Origin: a virus
Reading direction: 5' to 3' (one strand)
IMG/VR virus record: IMGVR_UViG_3300001427_000001
Span: 1-21,633 of that record
DNA length: 21,633 nt
The notes under the pieces are model-generated. The model was not told the DNA's origin. It worked only from the letters and a program-made list of their open reading frames with translations, and did not search any database. The position numbers and the translations under genes were made by a program. The stretch's first letter is position 1. Every line of letters starts with the position of its first letter. Positions 1 through 14,641 of the stretch are shown one piece after another.

Positions 1-88
1 TGACCCCAGCGCGCCTGGCCAGCTCCTCCCCAGTGAAGCCTGCTGCCTTGCGCAGCTCGCGGAATCTCTTTCGGCTGAATGCGGACAT
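1..88 (-). CDS. Xre-family HTH regulator, N-terminal fragment cut by window edge
   Basis: An open frame starts at ATG 88 and runs off the left end, giving 29 visible residues. They begin MSAFSRKRFRELRKAAGFTG and continue EELARRAGV. This is the usual first two helices of a Cro/CI-type helix-turn-helix, where residues like 'tgeeLArraGv' lead into the recognition helix. A GGCAGGAG ribosome site lies about 11 bases upstream. It follows the 109-336 gene with a 20-base gap, so it is probably in the same leftward transcript. The DNA-binding role is inferred from the fold pattern; the target is unknown because most of the protein is missing. Confidence 0.6.
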   Translation of the reverse strand, partial: MSAFSRKRFRELRKAAGFTGEELARRAGV

Positions 89-108
89 GGCTGTGCCACT
101 CCTGCCCA

Positions 109-1026: not shown

Positions 1027-1088
1027 AGGTACCTCAGGTACCCAAAGGGAGGTACCTCAGGTACCGCAAAGTAGGTACCTCAGGTACC
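1027..1088. repeat. Three 16-bp iterons at exact 23-bp spacing (candidate origin)
   Basis: The 16-mer AGGTACCTCAGGTACC occurs perfectly at 1027-1042, 1050-1065 and 1073-1088, so the period is exactly 23 bp. The 7-base spacers differ. Each unit contains the palindrome AGGTACCT followed by a second GGTACC, so each could bind a dimer. The third copy overlaps the 3' end of the putative initiator gene (1080-1424), and an AT-rich stretch lies on the other side. This layout resembles phage and plasmid iteron origins, where the initiator binds repeats within or next to its own gene. An operator for the 677-931 gene is the alternative. Confidence 0.55.
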
Positions 1089-1424
1089 TCCTAACCAGGG
1101 CAGTGACTGAGGCGCAGCCGCTGGCATGGCGTTGACCATCCAGCGCGTGCTGTGTGCCTTGGTGCCCAGGCTGTCCAGCTCGATGGCGCCAGCGGCCACC
1201 AGCTTGGCTCTGAGCTTGCGCAGGAAGCGCGCGCTGGTCCGATTCAGCGGGTAGCCCATCGCGCTGGCCTGCATCTCCCAGCTGCCCCAGTACAGGCACG
1301 CTGGCACGTCGTCACGGCCAGGAGGGTCCAGCGCTGTGACGGCCATGTGGACCAGCAGCATGCGGGGCGCTGGGTTCAGGCGCCCCCAGCTGGTCATCAC
1401 AGCCACCACGTTGCTGGCGCCCAT
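1080..1424 (-). CDS. Winged-helix DNA-binding protein, putative replication initiator
   Basis: The protein is 114 aa, starts at ATG 1424 and overlaps the previous stop (TGATG). Its layout matches small winged-helix replication initiators of actinophages. A first helix (RMLLVHMAVTALDPP) is followed by a strand and helix (ACLYWGSWEMQASAMGY). The recognition-helix region is NRTSARFLRKLRAKLVAAGA, and a hairpin wing follows (AIELDSLGTKAHSTRWMVN). It is the last gene of the run starting with RecT, and its 3' end enters the iteron array, as expected for an initiator that binds its own origin. The initiator function is inferred; a general transcription regulator is also possible. Confidence 0.55.
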   Translation of the reverse strand: MGASNVVAVMTSWGRLNPAPRMLLVHMAVTALDPPGRDDVPACLYWGSWEMQASAMGYPLNRTSARFLRKLRAKLVAAGAIELDSLGTKAHSTRWMVNAMPAAAPQSLPWLGGT

Positions 1425-4096: not shown

Positions 4097-4359
4097 TGCG
4101 CCTGCTCCTCACGGTGGCGCTGGATGGCTTTGATGATCGGCGCCATGCCTGCCTGAGGCTTGACCCAGGCCAGCTCACGCGCGCCACAGGTGCAGTCCAC
4201 TCGATTGCGCCCCCTCACGTGGCGCAGCACTGGCCGATGGGGGTGCGAGCCCTGCAGCAGGGTGGCCACCTGCTCTGCCTTGTCAGCCGACCAGGGGGGC
4301 ATCCGCGCGCGTTCAGCGGCCAGCTGCTCCTCAGTGAGCAGGCGCCCCTGGTCGCTCAT
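4093..4359 (-). CDS. Hypothetical 88-aa protein with a C-x-C motif
   Basis: ATG 4359 overlaps the HTH gene's stop as ATGA, placing it second in the early operon. The N-terminal half is helical (LTEEQLAAERARMPPWSADK, then AEQVATLLQG). The middle is basic with CTCGARELAW around residue 57, and the C-terminus is another basic helix (PIIKAIQRHREEQ). The arrangement suggests a nucleic-acid-binding protein, but I cannot assign a family. Similar 'LTxEQ...LLPPWSxDxA' openings occur in actinophage hypotheticals. Confidence 0.6.
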   Translation of the reverse strand: MSDQGRLLTEEQLAAERARMPPWSADKAEQVATLLQGSHPHRPVLRHVRGRNRVDCTCGARELAWVKPQAGMAPIIKAIQRHREEQAQ

Positions 4360-4631
4360 GAGGCATCAGCTGCGGCAAGTGCTGCCAGCTCATCAGCCAG
4401 CTTGTCCAGGTTCACTGTGATGGCCGTAACCGGGAGGGCCAGCGCGCGCGCCAGGGCCACGATGACTGCAGGGCTGGCCAGGCGCCTGTCCCGCTCAATC
4501 TTGGACACGTACGCCTTGGTTATCCCCACTTCATCGGCCAGCTGCTGCTGAGTAATTCCGCGCGCTTCCCTGATGGCCCTAACCGTTCCGCCCAGCAATC
4601 TCAGCCGCTGTGTGCTGTTCATAGGAGGCAT
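4356..4631 (-). CDS. Cro-like HTH (Xre family) regulator at head of early operon
   Basis: From ATG 4631 the protein is 91 aa. The helix-turn-helix is ITQQQLADEVGITKAYVSKI, followed by ERDRR, in the first 60 residues. The C-terminus is a short Leu/Ala-rich helix. There is no CI-type cleavage or dimerisation domain, so a Cro-like role is the simplest reading: first gene of the leftward early operon, divergent from a second HTH gene. The start at 4631 is chosen because a TAGACA-N17-TAGGGT promoter places transcription start at that ATG and no Shine-Dalgarno exists. In-frame ATGs at 4655 and 4622 are alternatives. A GTGTCTA/TAGACAC inverted repeat overlaps the -35, suggesting autoregulation or repression by the partner gene. 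Confidence 0.8.
   Translation of the reverse strand: MPPMNSTQRLRLLGGTVRAIREARGITQQQLADEVGITKAYVSKIERDRRLASPAVIVALARALALPVTAITVNLDKLADELAALAAADAS
4368..4389. repeat. 22-bp direct repeat, copy 1
   Basis: This stretch begins AGCTGCGGCA and ends TGCTGCCAGC. It is identical over 22 bases to 4928-4949 and in the same orientation. It lies in the 3' end of the Cro-like gene; the other copy lies inside the divergent HTH gene. The two genes are in opposite directions, so the repeat is not a trace of gene duplication. Confidence 0.6.
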
Positions 4632-4638
4632 GTGGGGA

Positions 4639-4667
4639 ACCCTAGGGACATGCATGGGCAGTGTCTA
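4639..4667 (-). promoter_or_regulatory. Promoter for early operon (TAGACA-N17-TAGGGT)
   Basis: On the minus strand the -35 TAGACA (4667-4662) and the -10 TAGGGT (4644-4639) are separated by exactly 17 bases. The -10 ends 7 bases before ATG 4631, so the mRNA would start at or next to the start codon and be leaderless. The -35 lies within one arm of the GTGTCTA/TAGACAC inverted repeat, so a protein bound there would block polymerase. Confidence 0.5.
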
Positions 4668-4761: not shown

Positions 4762-5148
4762 ATGCTTGTCGCTATGAAGCACAACCACGCCTTAGCCGTT
4801 CAGATCAGAGACGCGCGCCTGGCGGCAGGCCTTAGTCAGCAGCAGCTAGCGGATGCCTTAGGCATCAATCTGAGGACAGCAGGGCAGTGGGAGCGCGCCG
4901 GGGCCGTACCCGCCTTAAGAGTGGCCAAGCTGCGGCAAGTGCTGCCAGCCTTAGCTGGCGCGATTGCAGAGGCAGCAGCCGACGGCTGGGAGGCTGAGGC
5001 TGGCGCGACTGATGCTCAGCGTTTCGCCAAAGTCGTGCCACTCAGTGAGGCGCCCCTAGCCAAGCTGCACCGACTTAGGCGCGAGCTGTCGCGCATCTCT
5101 TTGGAAATGGATGAGTGCCTGGCTGAGCTGGAGCGCGGCAAGTCTTAG
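4762..5148 (+). CDS. HTH (Xre family) regulator, candidate lysogeny repressor
   Basis: The protein is 128 aa from ATG 4762, or 124 aa from ATG 4774 (MKHNHALAVQ), which fits family starts better; neither has a Shine-Dalgarno. The helix-turn-helix is LSQQQLADALGINLRTAGQW near residues 24-43. The C-terminal third, LHRLRRELSRISLEMDECLA, looks like a dimerising coiled coil. It is divergent from the Cro-like gene and reads toward the integrase. This fits an immunity repressor or an integrase/excision regulator. Its stop codon directly abuts the predicted attP, so integration would place this gene and the integrase at opposite prophage ends. Confidence 0.75.
   Translation: MLVAMKHNHALAVQIRDARLAAGLSQQQLADALGINLRTAGQWERAGAVPALRVAKLRQVLPALAGAIAEAAADGWEAEAGATDAQRFAKVVPLSEAPLAKLHRLRRELSRISLEMDECLAELERGKS
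4928..4949. repeat. 22-bp direct repeat, copy 2
   Basis: This is identical to 4368-4389 in the same orientation, with starts 560 bp apart. Here it encodes KLRQVLPA in the candidate repressor. Recombination between the copies would remove the control region and parts of both HTH genes. Confidence 0.6.
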
Positions 5149-5196
5149 AACGTCATAAGCCCAACTGCTGCCAGCAGCTGTCAGGCTCATAACGTT
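5149..5196. other. attP: Predicted attP for the serine integrase
   Basis: This 48-bp imperfect dyad is centred on the non-palindromic dinucleotide CA (5172-5173). Comparing each base with its mirror position, 18 of 24 pairs are complementary. The outer arms AACGTCATAAGCC (5149-5161) and GGCTCATAACGTT (5184-5196) match at 11 of 13 positions, and the inner GCTGC/GCAGC arms are perfect. Large serine integrases use attP sites of about this size, with imperfect symmetry around an asymmetric crossover dinucleotide, and the site usually adjoins the integrase gene, as here. A terminator for the upstream gene (a T4 run follows) or an integrase operator are alternatives. Confidence 0.6.
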
Positions 5197-5202
5197 TTCC
5201 TG

Positions 5203-5208
5203 TAGACT
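5203..5208 (+). promoter_or_regulatory. Candidate -10 box TAGACT for leaderless integrase mRNA
   Basis: TAGACT ends 7 bases before ATG 5216, and the integrase has no Shine-Dalgarno, so transcription probably starts at the start codon. Any -35 would lie inside the right arm of the predicted attP, so integrase bound to attP could repress its own gene. Confidence 0.35.
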
Positions 5209-5210
5209 GC

Positions 5211-5222
5211 GTGTCATGACAC
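5211..5222. promoter_or_regulatory. 12-bp palindrome GTGTCATGACAC at integrase start
   Basis: This perfect palindrome encloses the integrase ATG (5216-5218). The same 12-mer is at 18867-18878 and an 11/12 match surrounds the portal ATG. A regulator bound here would block transcription or a leaderless start. Confidence 0.45.
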
Positions 5223-6643
5223 ACACACTGACAGCCCACCCAGACCCTGCCATCATCTACCTGCGTCAGTCGCTGGACCGGACAGGCCAGCGCCTCGCCG
5301 TTGCCAGGCAGCTGGAAGCTAACCAAAGCCTTTGCGCTGCTAGGGGTATCCCTGTCCTGGAGGTTATTGAGGACAATGACGTGAGCGCCAGCAGCAGGAA
5401 GCGGCGCCCAGGCTTTGAACGCCTGGTGGGCATGATCACCAGCGGCCAGGTGCGCACCATCGTTGCCTATGCAGTGGACAGGCTCACGCGCACACTGCTG
5501 GACCTGGAGCGGCTGATAGACCTGGTGGAGCGCTATCAAGTCACAGTGGTCACGGTGTCCGGTGACCTGGACCTGTCCACTCCCGTTGGGCGCGCTGTGG
5601 CGCGCATCCTGGCCTCCATCGCGCGGCAGGAAGTAGAAGTGAAGGCAGCGCGCCAGCAGCTGCGCAACAAGCAGGCCCTGACCGATGGCATGCCCCTGGC
5701 TAGCGGCATGCGCACGGTGGGCTACGTAGATGCTGCCCTGTCGGCAGTCATCCCCAATGAGGTCACGCTGATTCAAGAGGGCTATGCCCAGCTCCTGGCT
5801 GGCGCCAGCACCAGCAGCATCGCGCGCCTGTGGAATGCCCAGGGGCTGCGCACCAGCCGCAATGGGAAGTGGACAGCTTCAACGGTGAAGATCGCCCTGA
5901 CCAATCCGCGCTATTCGGGTATCAGCGCCTATCGGGAGAATAGGCAAACGAAGCAAGTAATGGGCACCGGACGATGGACGGCCATTATTGACATGGATAC
6001 CTGGGAGGCTGCGCAGTCCATTCTGAATGACCCAGCGCGAAAGACCACCACAGGGCCAGCGCGTAAGTATCTGATGTCTGGAATGGCATTGTGTGCAGTG
6101 TGCGGTGAGCATTCTGTCTATTCCGCTCACGTCAGCGGGAAGCTGGTTTATCGCTGCCCCAAGCTGCACCTGTCCAGGCGCATTGAGCAGGTGGACGGCT
6201 ATGTGCGAGAGGTGGTCGCTGAGTATCTGCGCCAGCCTGGTGGCCCTCAGCTGGCCGCTGACACCAGCGACGCCAAGGCGCTGCGCCAGGAGGCTGCAGC
6301 GGTGCGCGCCAGGCTGGACAGGCTCACGGCCATGTTCATGGATGACCGGATAACTGAGGCGCAGCTGGACAGGGGCACAGCGGATGCCAGGGCGCGCCTG
6401 GAGGCCATCAGCAACGCTCAGGCAGCCAACGCTGGCCTGGGTGCGCTGGCGCCCCTGCTGGCCGCTGTGGACCCTGGGCAGGCCTTCCTGGATGCGCCCC
6501 TGGATGTCCAACGCACATTGGTGGACATGCTTGTCACGGTGCGCCTGTCCTCGCTGGGCAGGGGCAAGGGCAGAGCCCCGTTCGATCCCAGCACCATCCA
6601 GCTGGACTGGAAGGTGAGCGAGGCCACAGCCGTTGCTGCGTAA
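5216..6643 (+). CDS. int: Large serine recombinase (phage integrase)
   Basis: The protein is 475 aa and catalyses site-specific integration between attP and host attB through a covalent serine-DNA link. The catalytic motif is YLRQS with Ser19. The N-terminal resolvase domain continues through AYAVDRLTRTLLDLERLIDL (about 82-101) and the long helix VGRAVARILASIARQEVEVK. The recombinase domain follows (GMPLASGMRTVGY, then TSSIARLWNAQGLRTSRNGK). A zinc ribbon has Cys293, Cys296, Cys314 and possibly His318. A coiled coil (about 355-400, EAAAVRARLDRL) probably controls directionality. No dedicated directionality factor is recognisable. The predicted attP lies just upstream, and length and domain order match the family. 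Confidence 0.93.
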   Translation: MTHTLTAHPDPAIIYLRQSLDRTGQRLAVARQLEANQSLCAARGIPVLEVIEDNDVSASSRKRRPGFERLVGMITSGQVRTIVAYAVDRLTRTLLDLERLIDLVERYQVTVVTVSGDLDLSTPVGRAVARILASIARQEVEVKAARQQLRNKQALTDGMPLASGMRTVGYVDAALSAVIPNEVTLIQEGYAQLLAGASTSSIARLWNAQGLRTSRNGKWTASTVKIALTNPRYSGISAYRENRQTKQVMGTGRWTAIIDMDTWEAAQSILNDPARKTTTGPARKYLMSGMALCAVCGEHSVYSAHVSGKLVYRCPKLHLSRRIEQVDGYVREVVAEYLRQPGGPQLAADTSDAKALRQEAAAVRARLDRLTAMFMDDRITEAQLDRGTADARARLEAISNAQAANAGLGALAPLLAAVDPGQAFLDAPLDVQRTLVDMLVTVRLSSLGRGKGRAPFDPSTIQLDWKVSEATAVAA

Positions 6644-6709: not shown

Positions 6710-7042
6710 ATGCGAACGGCTCAGCTCCTCCTCACAGCCGCTGCCATCGGCGCGGCAGCCATCACCCTGACTGCCTGTGGCTCACAGGCTGCGCCAGCCA
6801 CCACCATGGCCAGCGACACCACCCACACATACACAGTCGGTCATGACATCAAAGCTGGCACCTACGTGGCCAACCAGCCGCTGGGCAAGGACTTCCGCTG
6901 TATGTGGGTGGTCAAGTCCCCAGAAGGCCTAGAGCTGGGGTCTGATGTCACCAAGGACAGCCACTTGGCCAAGCGTGTGCTGGTGCTGTCCGATGGCCAG
7001 GAAGTCATCACTGGCGGCTGTGGCACCTGGACCCTCACATGA
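6710..7042 (+). CDS. Secreted lipoprotein, possible lysogenic-conversion or exclusion factor
   Basis: The protein is 110 aa with a lipoprotein signal peptide: positive start (MRT), hydrophobic core (AAAIGAAAITL) and lipobox LTAC with Cys23, so it should be exported and anchored to the outer face of the membrane. The mature part has the pattern YTVGHDIKAGTYVANQP, CMWV, and a closing GGCGTWT with two Cys that may pair. This matches a small domain common in actinobacterial lipoproteins. It is co-oriented with the integrase, 66 bases downstream, in the position where temperate phages carry prophage-expressed genes. A superinfection-exclusion role is a reasonable guess by analogy with other phage lipoproteins, not shown by the sequence. 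GAAAGG lies upstream. Confidence 0.75.
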   Translation: MRTAQLLLTAAAIGAAAITLTACGSQAAPATTMASDTTHTYTVGHDIKAGTYVANQPLGKDFRCMWVVKSPEGLELGSDVTKDSHLAKRVLVLSDGQEVITGGCGTWTLT

Positions 7043-7215
7043 TGCGGATCTTGAGCCCCGACATGCCGCGCTACTGGTCTTGCGAATGTGGCGCCCGTAA
7101 GGGGCAGCCCTGCAGGTCCAGGACAGGCAGGCCCATCGCCTATCACGCATCGCGCGTCAATTCCGCAGTGCTGTGGCAGCGCTACGGCGCGCCGTCCGCA
7201 ACGGAGGCCCCGTAA
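7042..7215 (+). CDS. Small zinc-finger protein (57 aa)
   Basis: ATG 7042 follows the overlapping ATG at 7039, which forms an ATGA with the lipoprotein stop, so the two genes are translationally coupled. The protein has C-x-C-G-A at residues 14-18, G-x-P-C at 21-24, then Gly-Arg and a His at 35. This pattern (CxCGAxxGxPC...GR...H) is a small zinc finger often seen in actinophages, probably binding DNA or a protein partner. It ends 14 bases before the terminator at 7230. Being under 60 residues, it is easy to miss in automated calls. Confidence 0.65.
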   Translation: MRILSPDMPRYWSCECGARKGQPCRSRTGRPIAYHASRVNSAVLWQRYGAPSATEAP

Positions 7216-7229
7216 CGGATATTGTGACG

Positions 7230-7269
7230 AAAGAGCCCCCGCTGAGCCCCCACTCAGCGGGGGCTCTTT
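7230..7269. terminator. Bidirectional intrinsic terminator
   Basis: There is a perfect 17-bp stem: AAAGAGCCCCCGCTGAG (7230-7246) pairs with CTCAGCGGGGGCTCTTT (7253-7269) around the loop CCCCCA. Short A and T runs at the outer ends let it work in both directions. It stops the late operon arriving from the right and the integrase-lipoprotein transcript arriving from the left. The stop codon of the 7254-7406 gene lies within the right arm. Confidence 0.85.
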
Positions 7270-7406
7270 GGGTTCCCAGGGTGCCTGGTGTTGGGGTCAA
7301 GGATGGCCAGCACCCTGTCCACCTTGCTGGCAATGTCCCTGAGCAGCTGCTCAGTCCCTGGCGGCAGATCGCGGCCAGCCGTGTCGCTCACGTCACTGTT
7401 CGCCAT
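7254..7406 (-). CDS. Hypothetical 50-aa protein, last gene of late operon
   Basis: ATG 7406 has GAAAGAGG about 10 bases upstream. The peptide has a polar start and a short helix, LPPGTEQLLRDIASKVDRVL, followed by a Pro/Asn-rich tail. The helix resembles the short heptad segments of small phage proteins encoded after the tail genes, but no family is clear. Its stop codon lies inside the terminator. An upstream extension in the same frame (to 7520) would run into the tail-tip gene and has no ribosome site, so I reject it. Confidence 0.5.
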   Translation of the reverse strand: MANSDVSDTAGRDLPPGTEQLLRDIASKVDRVLAILDPNTRHPGNPKSPR

Positions 7407-7497
7407 GGTGGGGGCGCCTCTTTCCCAGGGGCCGTAGGGCCAAGCGAGTGTGTGAAGTAGTGGGAAGTAAGTAAGAGTGCAAGGACGCACTGTGGCA

Positions 7498-7914
7498 TCA
7501 GTAGCCCCATACGGAGACATTGAGGTGCTGGTAAGCGTTGCGGACCTGTTCGCCGCGCCCGTCCATCACCATGAAGCTAATTCCGCTCACGTTCAACGCC
7601 TCGTTGTTGAACAGGATGGAGCGGCCCAGGTCACGGATGCTGGCAAGGGACAGGGTGGCTGCCACCACCACAGTGGTGAAGCCCGTTGGCGCTACGCCCA
7701 TCCCAAACCCATCCAGCCCGATCTGCCAGTTGTTGATGCAGACGTGACGCACCTTTGACCTGTCATAGGCTGCGCTACCAGCCCAGGGCGGTTGCCCGGG
7801 GAACAGGTCAGCCGGGCGAAGGTTGTCACCGATCCCAGCGATGATCGCGGCGCCGTCGCGTACCGGGTCGGTGGGCAGCGGCACCACATATCCGAACGGC
7901 GTTGTTCTAGTCAT
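7498..7914 (-). CDS. Putative tail-tip / minor tail protein
   Basis: The protein is 138 aa from ATG 7914, overlapping the 7907-8056 gene by 8 bases. The opening MTRTTPFGYVVPLPTDPVRD, followed by GAAIIAGIGDN, is a common start of short actinophage proteins encoded after the minor tail genes. The rest is beta-rich with many aromatic and Gly residues (FGMGVAPTGFTTVVVAATLS), as in small receptor-binding or tail-tip proteins. No catalytic motif is visible. Being distal in the tail gene cluster supports a role at the tail tip; receptor binding is inference. Confidence 0.6.
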   Translation of the reverse strand: MTRTTPFGYVVPLPTDPVRDGAAIIAGIGDNLRPADLFPGQPPWAGSAAYDRSKVRHVCINNWQIGLDGFGMGVAPTGFTTVVVAATLSLASIRDLGRSILFNNEALNVSGISFMVMDGRGEQVRNAYQHLNVSVWGY

Positions 7915-8056
7915 CGCGCTGCCCCGTTCCCCCCTGGTCGGATTCCGCGCGTTGCTCACGTTCGATCTGGTCGCGCAGCTGATCAGCAAAGGCTTGCATT
8001 GCGGGGTCTATTGGTGACACGTAGCCTACTGGCGGCCAGCCGTCGTCATCGCTCAT
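7907..8056 (-). CDS. Hypothetical 49-aa tail-region protein
   Basis: ATG 8056 lies 2 bases after the minor tail gene's stop and has the ribosome site AAAGGTG in the end of that gene. The sequence is acidic: MSDDDGWPPVGYVSPIDPAM, then a helix QAFADQLRDQIEREQRAE. Its helical, charged tail and its place between two tail proteins suggest a structural or chaperone role, but the family is not recognised. Confidence 0.55.
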   Translation of the reverse strand: MSDDDGWPPVGYVSPIDPAMQAFADQLRDQIEREQRAESDQGGTGQRDD

Positions 8057-8058
8057 TG

Positions 8059-9975
8059 TCAATTCACCTTTACACCAGACAGATCCACCCAGCGGATGCT
8101 GGGATGGAAGTCCTGCCATCTCCAGGCAGTGACAGGGTGCGGGGTGCTGGGCATGTCCTCCCATTTACAGGACACTCCAGCGGCTGTGGGCGCGCTGGTG
8201 ATCATATCCAGCTGCCAGGCGCCGTCATGGCTGGTATAGGTGCCCCCTTCGACAAACAGGGGCACCTGAGCGCGCCCATCGACTGGGGACCAGGGTGGCA
8301 GGTTGGTGACCAGCACTGGGCAGCCGTTGCGCGTGGTGCCATCCAGCAGCGTCATCATGCGTGTCAGCTGGTCGCTGGTCATGGCATCGGACACCAGCGC
8401 ATCCCAGGTGAGCCCAGAGATACGCCAGCCAGGTGAGCTGGTGCGCCCCAGGATGTTCGCAGCCAGTCTGGCTGCATCGGCTTGCGCGGCCAGCTGGGTG
8501 GAGACAGCAACGCGCCTGGTCCCCATCCTGGCCTCTAGCACAGGGTCAGCAGTGGTCACCACGCTGTCAGTCGGCGCAGGCTGGCCCTTGTCGTTCAGGG
8601 TCTGCTCACGCCAGGTCACAGCAACCCTGGTGGATACGTCCGCCACGTCCTGTACCCAGCGCACAGGGTCACGCGATAGATCACAGGCATCCAGGGTGAC
8701 CTGGCCAGGCACGCTGTCCATCGGGCCGATGGTCACGATGCCGCTGGCGCCCTGGCTGAGCCCTGACAGCGCTGGCCGCTGGCCCAGTGCCTCCATGTCC
8801 AGGTAGGGGCCAGTGGTCAGGCTGGTGGCGCACCAGAGCACTGAATCAGCGGATATGGCCAGCTCCTGCAGCAGGGTGAGCGCGCCCTGCCTGTCCACAT
8901 CACGCCAGGACACCTGCAGAGGCGCTGGGGCGCTGTCTATCTGGTATTTGATGGGTTGCCCTGACAGGGTGACGATGCGGGCAAACCTGGTGTCTAGGCG
9001 CTCAGCCAGCCAGGGCTCATCTCCCACATCCCTGTTGGCCAGCTCGCTGCGCTGGTCCTGCGCTGTGATGTCGATCAGCGTTGCGCCACTCCCAGTGTCA
9101 AAGCGCGCTTCCATGTCCGTGATGCGCCCTGAGAACACCAGGCCGCTGCGCTGGGTGCCCGCTCCTGGTGCTGTCAGCTTGACGTTATCCACAGCGAAGG
9201 TGGACAGGTCCAGCCAGCTGCGGCTGTCCAGGGCATTCCATGGGGTGCGGTCCAGCTCATTCCAGGCTGGCCCCGTAGGGCTGACCACCACGCGGATGCC
9301 CTGCCAGGCATCAGGGGTCGGCACGTACGTGACGGCAGCCCCGGTCACGTTCAGCGGGATGTCACTACGCTGCGCGCCTCGCTGCCAGGGCGCCAGGTAG
9401 TCCAGCGGATAGGCAGCCGCGCGCCAGCCTGTGTAGCCAGCGAAGGCAGCAGGCAGGGTCACCAGGACTGCAGCAGCCCAGCTCTGCCCAGCCTTGGGTC
9501 TGGGCACCGCATCCCAGGCCGCTGGGTTGCCCCCCTGAGACTCAGAAGGGCCAGGGGTGAAGTCCAGCACCACAGGCTGGGTGGCTTTGTCAGCGACCAG
9601 CTTGAGCGCCCCTGTGCCGCCCAGGCTGGCACTGCCGTTCTCAGCCACCAGGGGTGGCAATGGTGGGGCTGTGAATTGATGGTCCATCAGCACCACAGCG
9701 CCTGGCGCTGGGTAGACAGTCGCATCAGCGCGCACGGACAGGGTGCGCCCGATGCCCACCAGCTCCCTGAACGACTGGCCCCCCAACGCATCCAGCAGCG
9801 TCAACACACAGGTGGCTGGCGCTGGCTGGTCCAGGATGGTGGAGCGACCCCATTGCACGCGCAGCCCCGACAGCACCATCGGCGCCAGGCTGTCTACGTC
9901 CCTGCCGTCCGATAGCTGTACGCCATCGCACCAGACAGACACGGCAGGGGGGCGCATGCGCCCTGGCAGGGTCAT
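8059..9975 (-). CDS. Minor tail protein (baseplate/hub region)
   Basis: The protein is 638 aa from ATG 9975, overlapping the tape measure stop as ATGA. It opens with a beta-rich domain (PAVSVWCDGVQLSDGRDVDS) and has a middle region with lectin-like strands and many Trp. It then has a phage-tail segment, LVFSGRITDMEARFDTGSGA, followed by TLIDITAQDQRSELANRDVG. This last pattern is typical of minor tail proteins directly downstream of the tape measure in actinophages. These form the tail tip hub that holds the fibres. No peptidase or lysozyme motif is visible. Confidence 0.75.
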   Translation of the reverse strand: MTLPGRMRPPAVSVWCDGVQLSDGRDVDSLAPMVLSGLRVQWGRSTILDQPAPATCVLTLLDALGGQSFRELVGIGRTLSVRADATVYPAPGAVVLMDHQFTAPPLPPLVAENGSASLGGTGALKLVADKATQPVVLDFTPGPSESQGGNPAAWDAVPRPKAGQSWAAAVLVTLPAAFAGYTGWRAAAYPLDYLAPWQRGAQRSDIPLNVTGAAVTYVPTPDAWQGIRVVVSPTGPAWNELDRTPWNALDSRSWLDLSTFAVDNVKLTAPGAGTQRSGLVFSGRITDMEARFDTGSGATLIDITAQDQRSELANRDVGDEPWLAERLDTRFARIVTLSGQPIKYQIDSAPAPLQVSWRDVDRQGALTLLQELAISADSVLWCATSLTTGPYLDMEALGQRPALSGLSQGASGIVTIGPMDSVPGQVTLDACDLSRDPVRWVQDVADVSTRVAVTWREQTLNDKGQPAPTDSVVTTADPVLEARMGTRRVAVSTQLAAQADAARLAANILGRTSSPGWRISGLTWDALVSDAMTSDQLTRMMTLLDGTTRNGCPVLVTNLPPWSPVDGRAQVPLFVEGGTYTSHDGAWQLDMITSAPTAAGVSCKWEDMPSTPHPVTAWRWQDFHPSIRWVDLSGVKVN

Positions 9976-14248: not shown

Positions 14249-14641
14249 TCATCGTTGCCTAATCAGGTCAGTCCATGTCAGCTCATATGCGGCCAGTACC
14301 GCTGTCTGGTCTGCAGTCCACATGTCTGCTGGCCTGGCAGTGACCATGCGGCCAACCAGGGCAGCCTGCGCCCTGGTCAGCAGGTCTGAAAGCTCCTGGT
14401 ATTGAATGCGTTTGATGGTGTGGCCACTGCACAGCACCAGGGTCTGGTCACACTCATAGTCGTTGCCCTTGAATCGAAAGCGCAGCGTAGGGGGCGCGTA
14501 GTAGATGCATGGTGGGTTGATGTCCTTGGGGTCATCAAAGACGCGCAGCCCAGCACCCAGTAGCGCCTGGATGATGGGCTGCGCCGCACTGATGAGGATG
14601 GGCAGCGCAGTGGCCACAGGTGCGCTCACGCCACCCCCCAC
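14249..14641 (-). CDS. Head-tail connector / tail terminator-like protein
   Basis: The protein is 130 aa from GTG 14641, or 126 aa from GTG 14629, whose GTGA overlap with the previous stop is also attractive. It has an N-terminal helix (ALPILISAAQPIIQALLGAG), a strand-rich centre (PPCIYYAPPTLRFRFKGNDY) and a helical end (AAYELTWTDLIRQR). No strong family signature is readable by eye. The position between the DNA-packaging connector and major tail genes is where the stopper and tail terminator proteins of siphophages lie. Confidence 0.55.
   Translation of the reverse strand: MGGGVSAPVATALPILISAAQPIIQALLGAGLRVFDDPKDINPPCIYYAPPTLRFRFKGNDYECDQTLVLCSGHTIKRIQYQELSDLLTRAQAALVGRMVTARPADMWTADQTAVLAAYELTWTDLIRQR

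Follow-up and report, generated by a model that had tools for sequence, protein, structure and literature searches.

A predicted attP site immediately upstream of the large serine integrase gene in an uncultured small tailed phage

The 48-bp dyad at positions 5149-5196 of the IMG/VR virus record IMGVR_UViG_3300001427_000001, analysed here over a window of 21,633 nt that is referred to below simply as the window, is very probably the attP site of the large serine integrase encoded at 5216-6643. The attP sites of large serine integrases are an already known kind of site and their location beside int is the ordinary arrangement. From the sequence we infer that this integrase uses the dyad, that crossover takes place at the central CA and that the site is coupled to the int promoter. 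The locus is of interest because it offers a candidate integrase/attP pair with a new specificity; the pair comes from an uncultured family of small phages and would be useful as a tool for orthogonal recombination.

The phage and its integrase

The record is a linear contig of 21.6 kb belonging to a small tailed phage; its portal protein is nearest to Mycobacterium phage portals (~40%) and many other matches are to Microbacterium phages, which makes an actinobacterial host probable. Two other IMG/VR records, G007 (IMGVR 3300049491_000348) and G011 (3300048917_000103), belong to the same small phage family and share with the window, in synteny, the structural genes, the two genes of XRE-type proteins HTH1 and HTH2, RusA and RecT. 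In the window the divergent HTH1 and HTH2 genes lie to the left of the dyad together with RusA and a RecT-like gene, the latter recognized by eye and with no Pfam match; a scan for relatives of HTH2 turned up G011 and, in other phages, no more than the HTH domain. The integrase has a resolvase catalytic domain with the serine present, in which Y15-x-R17-x-S19 and R89/R92 are invariant in the alignment, followed by a Recombinase domain. A candidate zinc ribbon domain gives no separate Pfam match; cysteines C293-x-x-C296 and C314 are invariant among the five aligned sequences, with no clear fourth zinc ligand. The features of the locus are collected in Table 1.

Table 1. Integration locus and neighbouring features, in window coordinates
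Feature	Position	Strand	Sequence, evidence or remark
Predicted attP, P half-site (outer arm, distal to int)	5149..5172	+	AACGTCATAAGCCCAACTGCTGCC
Predicted attP, P' half-site (inner arm, on int side)	5173..5196	+	AGCAGCTGTCAGGCTCATAACGTT; 18/24 complementary to P half-site
Predicted crossover dinucleotide CA	5172..5173	+	centre of dyad symmetry
Large serine integrase, 475 aa	5216..6643	+	PF00239 9.7e-26, PF07508 2.7e-18; phrog_95 9.5e-89
XRE-type HTH protein HTH2, stop directly before attP	4774..5148	+	PF01381 2.7e-8; homologues in G007, G011
XRE-type HTH protein HTH1, divergent from HTH2	4356..4655	-	PF01381 8.9e-17
Small lipoprotein-like gene, 3' of int, same strand	6710..7042	+	ORF list, lipobox-like LTACG by eye
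Terminator-like hairpin closing the int-lipoprotein unit	7244..7266	+	terminator scan
Putative -10 box TAGACT, leaderless int transcript	5203..5208	+	30 nt from attP centre, 7 nt before ATG

A 22-nt exact direct repeat, AGCTGCGGCAAGTGCTGCCAGC, is found at 4368-4389 and 4928-4949, within the HTH1 and HTH2 genes on opposite strands, and the core 5162-5175 repeats 13 of its last 14 bases. On the other side of int, the region 6710-8164 carries the small lipoprotein-like gene in the place where G007 has a gene of ~214 aa, located between the tail genes and int, thought to encode a lysin (no Pfam match) and without a match in the window or in the related contig L061.

Architecture of the dyad

A sequence-only reading had described a 48-bp dyad with 18 of 24 complementary mirror positions around an asymmetric CA, starting right after the stop of the upstream gene and ending 19 bases before the integrase, and all of this was recomputed as claimed: the TAG of the HTH2 gene occupies 5146-5148 and positions 5197-5215 separate the dyad from the ATG at 5216. 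The full site consists of the two half-sites of Table 1 placed end to end, the halves meeting at C5172 and A5173. The central CA is a non-palindromic dinucleotide, read as TG on the other strand. The inner CTGCTGCCAGCAG is symmetric by itself about 5171, and it is the outer arms that set the centre between 5172 and 5173. An attP site is defined as an imperfect inverted repeat of 40-50 bp around a core (PMC3783163, PMC5311408), and the mirror pairing of 18/24 over 48 bp about C5172-A5173 makes the dyad a repeat of this kind. On an attP half-site of 25 bp the recombinase domain contacts positions ~1-13 and the zinc domain positions 16-24 (PMC3783163); the strongest pairing in the dyad, at positions 1-5, 7-8, 11-14, 16-17, and 19-23 from the centre, covers the whole span that an integrase subunit contacts.

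From sixty dinucleotide-preserving shuffles, sites that pair at 18/24 or better are expected 0.033 times per window, and none of 200 shuffles of the dyad's own ~350-nt region reached 18/24. Symmetry alone cannot identify 5149-5196, because two further 18/24 dyads occur in the window, one in a GC-rich terminator (7226-7273) and the other within a coding sequence (14540-14587). With up to 3 mismatches allowed, the arm pattern had no second match, and its exact form is absent from all other IMG/VR contigs.

Comparison with established attP sites

The same dyad scan was run blind on phages with known attP, namely phiJoe, phiC31 and phiBT1. The attP of phiJoe (Streptomyces phage Joe, KX815338) was confirmed by plasmid integration (PMC5311408). 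Its top dyad, of 17/24, is located at the annotated core GG. In phiC31 and phiBT1 the attP dyads ranked first with 15/24 each, centred respectively on TT and GT, the known cores of these two sites; the attP of phiBT1 is annotated in its record. The Mycobacterium abscessus prophage prophiGD54-2 has been mapped through its attL/attR cores (PMC8092301); here the top local dyad, of 15/24, falls where the two record ends are joined (core GACTA). The recovery of these four attP sites indicates that the scan finds real ones.

The likeness to phiJoe is base for base in spacing: in both phages the core lies 43 nt from the ATG and 30 nt from the -10 box, and the box is 7 nt from the ATG. In both, an attP of ~50 bp forming an imperfect dyad is located directly 5' of int, and the -10-like box of phiJoe, TAGGTT, stands at +30. 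In contrast, the half-site sequence and the core (GG) of phiJoe are different, and its flanking gene is the divergent RDF gp52, whereas in the window it is the co-directional XRE gene. phiC31 and phiBT1 also have attP 5' of int, but their dyads are weaker (15/24) and of other sequence, and in phiC31 the -10-like box is at +22, inside the outer arm. In its size, architecture, asymmetric core and position the dyad resembles proven attP sites, and its geometry matches phiJoe exactly, which supports the attP reading.

The site adjoins int, with 19 nt before the ATG compared with 18 nt in phiJoe. Such proximity is usual and not universal, because attP is 8 kb from int in the related phage prophiGD54-2 and downstream of int in SV1 (PMC4068962).

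Related phages and integrase loci

The integrases of G007 and G011 are respectively 42-44% and 29-32% identical to that of the window, and int is convergent with HTH2 in both relatives, whereas the window has the two genes in the same direction; therefore the integrase cassette has been flipped. With a fixed scan of -330..-5, the best dyad lies 5' of int both in G011 (19/24) and in G007 (13/24), the latter being weak alone (region p=0.62) and nearly tied with another 13/24 centre that a changed scan range favours. In the window, G007, and G011 the dyad centre lies exactly 30 nt before GTAGRCTG, although the dyad sequences are unrelated. In both relatives, unrelated GC-rich terminators with a T-run mark the 3' end of HTH2. 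The dyad goes with int and not with HTH2. A conserved RNA hairpin and terminator at this place in relatives lacking the integrase had been named by the sequence-only reading as a refuting result; what the relatives have is a dyad that accompanies int and HTH2 ends with terminators of their own.

The attP-int cassette 5149-6643 is inverted relative to its neighbours when compared with the close relatives L103 and L104. Inversion of the cassette among family members would alter which genes sit at the prophage ends.

The population evidence comes from 66 related integrase loci in IMG/VR, 38 of which are non-redundant and were used for dyad counts. The record ends at most 300 nt 5' of int in 19/66 loci and at most 2.5 kb 3' of int in 0/66, and 12 records from isolate genomes end within ~50 nt 5' of int. 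Such a pattern would be expected of prophages excised at an attP located 5' of int, with trimmed borders and contig ends counted together. Dyads of at least 16/24 are found at -120..-20 of int in 13/38 loci against 8/265 other zones (Fisher p=2.5e-8); the former is an upper estimate for attP, because a few of these dyads are visibly terminators with a T-run.

In the IMG/VR records, genome contigs and plasmids that were covered, no attL, attR or attB was found, nor any prophage of this phage or of a near relative. The nearest integrase found is only 42-44% identical, and hence there is no prophage of the same specificity to compare. Among genome contigs the integrase search returned only partial-length matches of 20-37%, mostly in Firmicutes and MAGs, and among plasmids only distant integrases, at most 36%.

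Alternative explanations of the dyad

Placed directly after the HTH2 stop, the dyad might instead be an RNA hairpin, either the terminator of HTH2 or an attenuator before int, and its predicted fold (z=-2.5) with UUUU at the 3' base agrees with this; nevertheless, folding cannot discriminate attP from a terminator, because proven attP sites are symmetric too. The dyad is absent from the list of the terminator scan, its stem is interrupted with an A+T-rich base, and it does not combine a GC-rich stem with a T-run. Moreover, the HTH2 genes of the relatives end in their own, unrelated GC-rich terminators and the dyad stays 5' of int even where int is on the other side, which leaves the hairpin very improbable.

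The neighbourhood of two HTH genes and a -10-like box 6 nt past the dyad could also indicate an operator at which an XRE repressor controls the int promoter. This is very improbable: the intergenic region between HTH1 and HTH2, the expected location of operators, shares no 6-mer with the dyad, and the window holds no second copy of either arm even when 7 mismatches are allowed. XRE operators are usually shorter than 48 bp, and symmetry over the full 48 bp fits the footprint of an integrase dimer better. That footprint is 50 bp (PMC3783163). The remaining alternative, that the symmetry arose by chance and the true attP is located at another place in the genome, draws on the two other 18/24 dyads of the window and on the kilobases that may separate attP from int, as in prophiGD54-2; it is extremely improbable in view of the 0.03 sites expected per window, the exact phiJoe spacing and the same placement in the relatives.

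Predicted course of integration

Large serine integrases act by dimer binding, synapsis, double-strand cleavage, rotation, and religation. On the predicted attP, an integrase dimer would bind both half-sites, with the recombinase domain on the inner ~13 bp and the zinc domain on the outer ~9 bp, and would synapse with a dimer bound to attB. Both strands would be cut around C5172-A5173 and, after rotation and religation, attL and attR would result; CA is predicted both as the crossover and as the core dinucleotide of attB. Both coding sequences would stay intact, because the crossover is separated from the HTH2 stop by 24-25 nt and from the ATG by 43 nt. The prophage would span int at one end to HTH2 at the other, int retaining the P' arm and the TAGACT box, and the ends of a prophage carrying this integrase would show AACGTCATAAGCCCAACTGCTGCC or AACGTTATGAGCCTGACAGCTGCT.

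The box TAGACT, just outside the P' arm, is the probable -10 element of a leaderless int mRNA, and from this location bound integrase could dampen its own promoter. Integration might also separate int from transcription coming through HTH2. For phiC31, attP is described as located in the promoter region of int, whose expression continues once the phage has integrated (PMC11784100).

A possible leaderless int promoter built around attP

A TANNNT box 6-8 nt before a plausible int start was found in 29/39 cases, whereas the remaining long ORFs at these loci have it in only 5/97 (p=3e-16), and in 11 of 12 phages fetched afterwards as a fresh test; the box, which would yield a leaderless int mRNA, is well supported by these counts. 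The distance from the box to the attP centre is 21-22 in phiC31, R4-like phages, Mudpuppy, and Jevington, and 30-31 in the window, G007, G011, phiJoe, Yosif, L126, and L168, two spacings that differ by about one helical turn. These classes were picked after looking at the data, and in the set that defined them 9/11 independent families have one of the two preferred distances. Of six clear-dyad phages in the fresh set, three are at preferred distances and the others at 9, 11, and 40; all the exceptions together are 9, 11, 15, 26, and 40. The phasing of box and attP is partly supported.

On balance, we lean slightly towards a general arrangement in actinobacterial phages, in which the serine integrase attP would be built into a leaderless int promoter with the TANNNT box at 21-22 or 30-31 bp. 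If this is true, integrase bound to attP would repress its own expression, and the promoter would be rewired by integration rather than lost. For actinophages, the TANNNT pattern offers a simple rule by which attP and the correct start of int can be located, and it gives a testable prediction on the coupling of int expression to integration. In the part of the literature that was covered, no paper was found stating this general pattern of serine integrase, leaderless start and attP.

Genome ends and additional features

The sequence-only reading had also taken the window for free phage genome, which is reasonable given that both arms are intact, that genes syntenic with the relatives lie on both sides and that L061 joins the window ends. 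In particular, L061 is identical to the window at 101-1 and 21633-19195, the two being joined through 1331 bp; a circular or permuted map of ~22.96 kb is therefore implied, and for the same reason no host junction is seen within the window.

L061 leaves the window at position 101 and not at attP. When L061 1-680 is compared with window 1-101, the two are otherwise 100% identical and, at a ribosome-binding site, L061 passes into a different module, whose first ORF resembles, by eye, the C-terminus of a different serine integrase, with no Pfam or phage match. L061 was considered as a prophage junction and rejected, since the break coincides with a ribosome-binding site, has no dyad and shows just ~5 shared bases. 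The departure at 101 looks like mosaicism from a recent exchange, the relative carrying its integrase elsewhere.

At 1025-1093 the palindrome AGGTACCTCAGGTACCT occurs three times in tandem, each copy being 23 nt long, and this array overlaps a small gene at 1080-1424 (- strand) at its 3' end; three copies of another palindrome, AGGCCACTGAGTGGCCT, stand in G007 directly after the homologue of this gene. The two palindromes are possibly origin iterons, or operators, diverging together with their protein.
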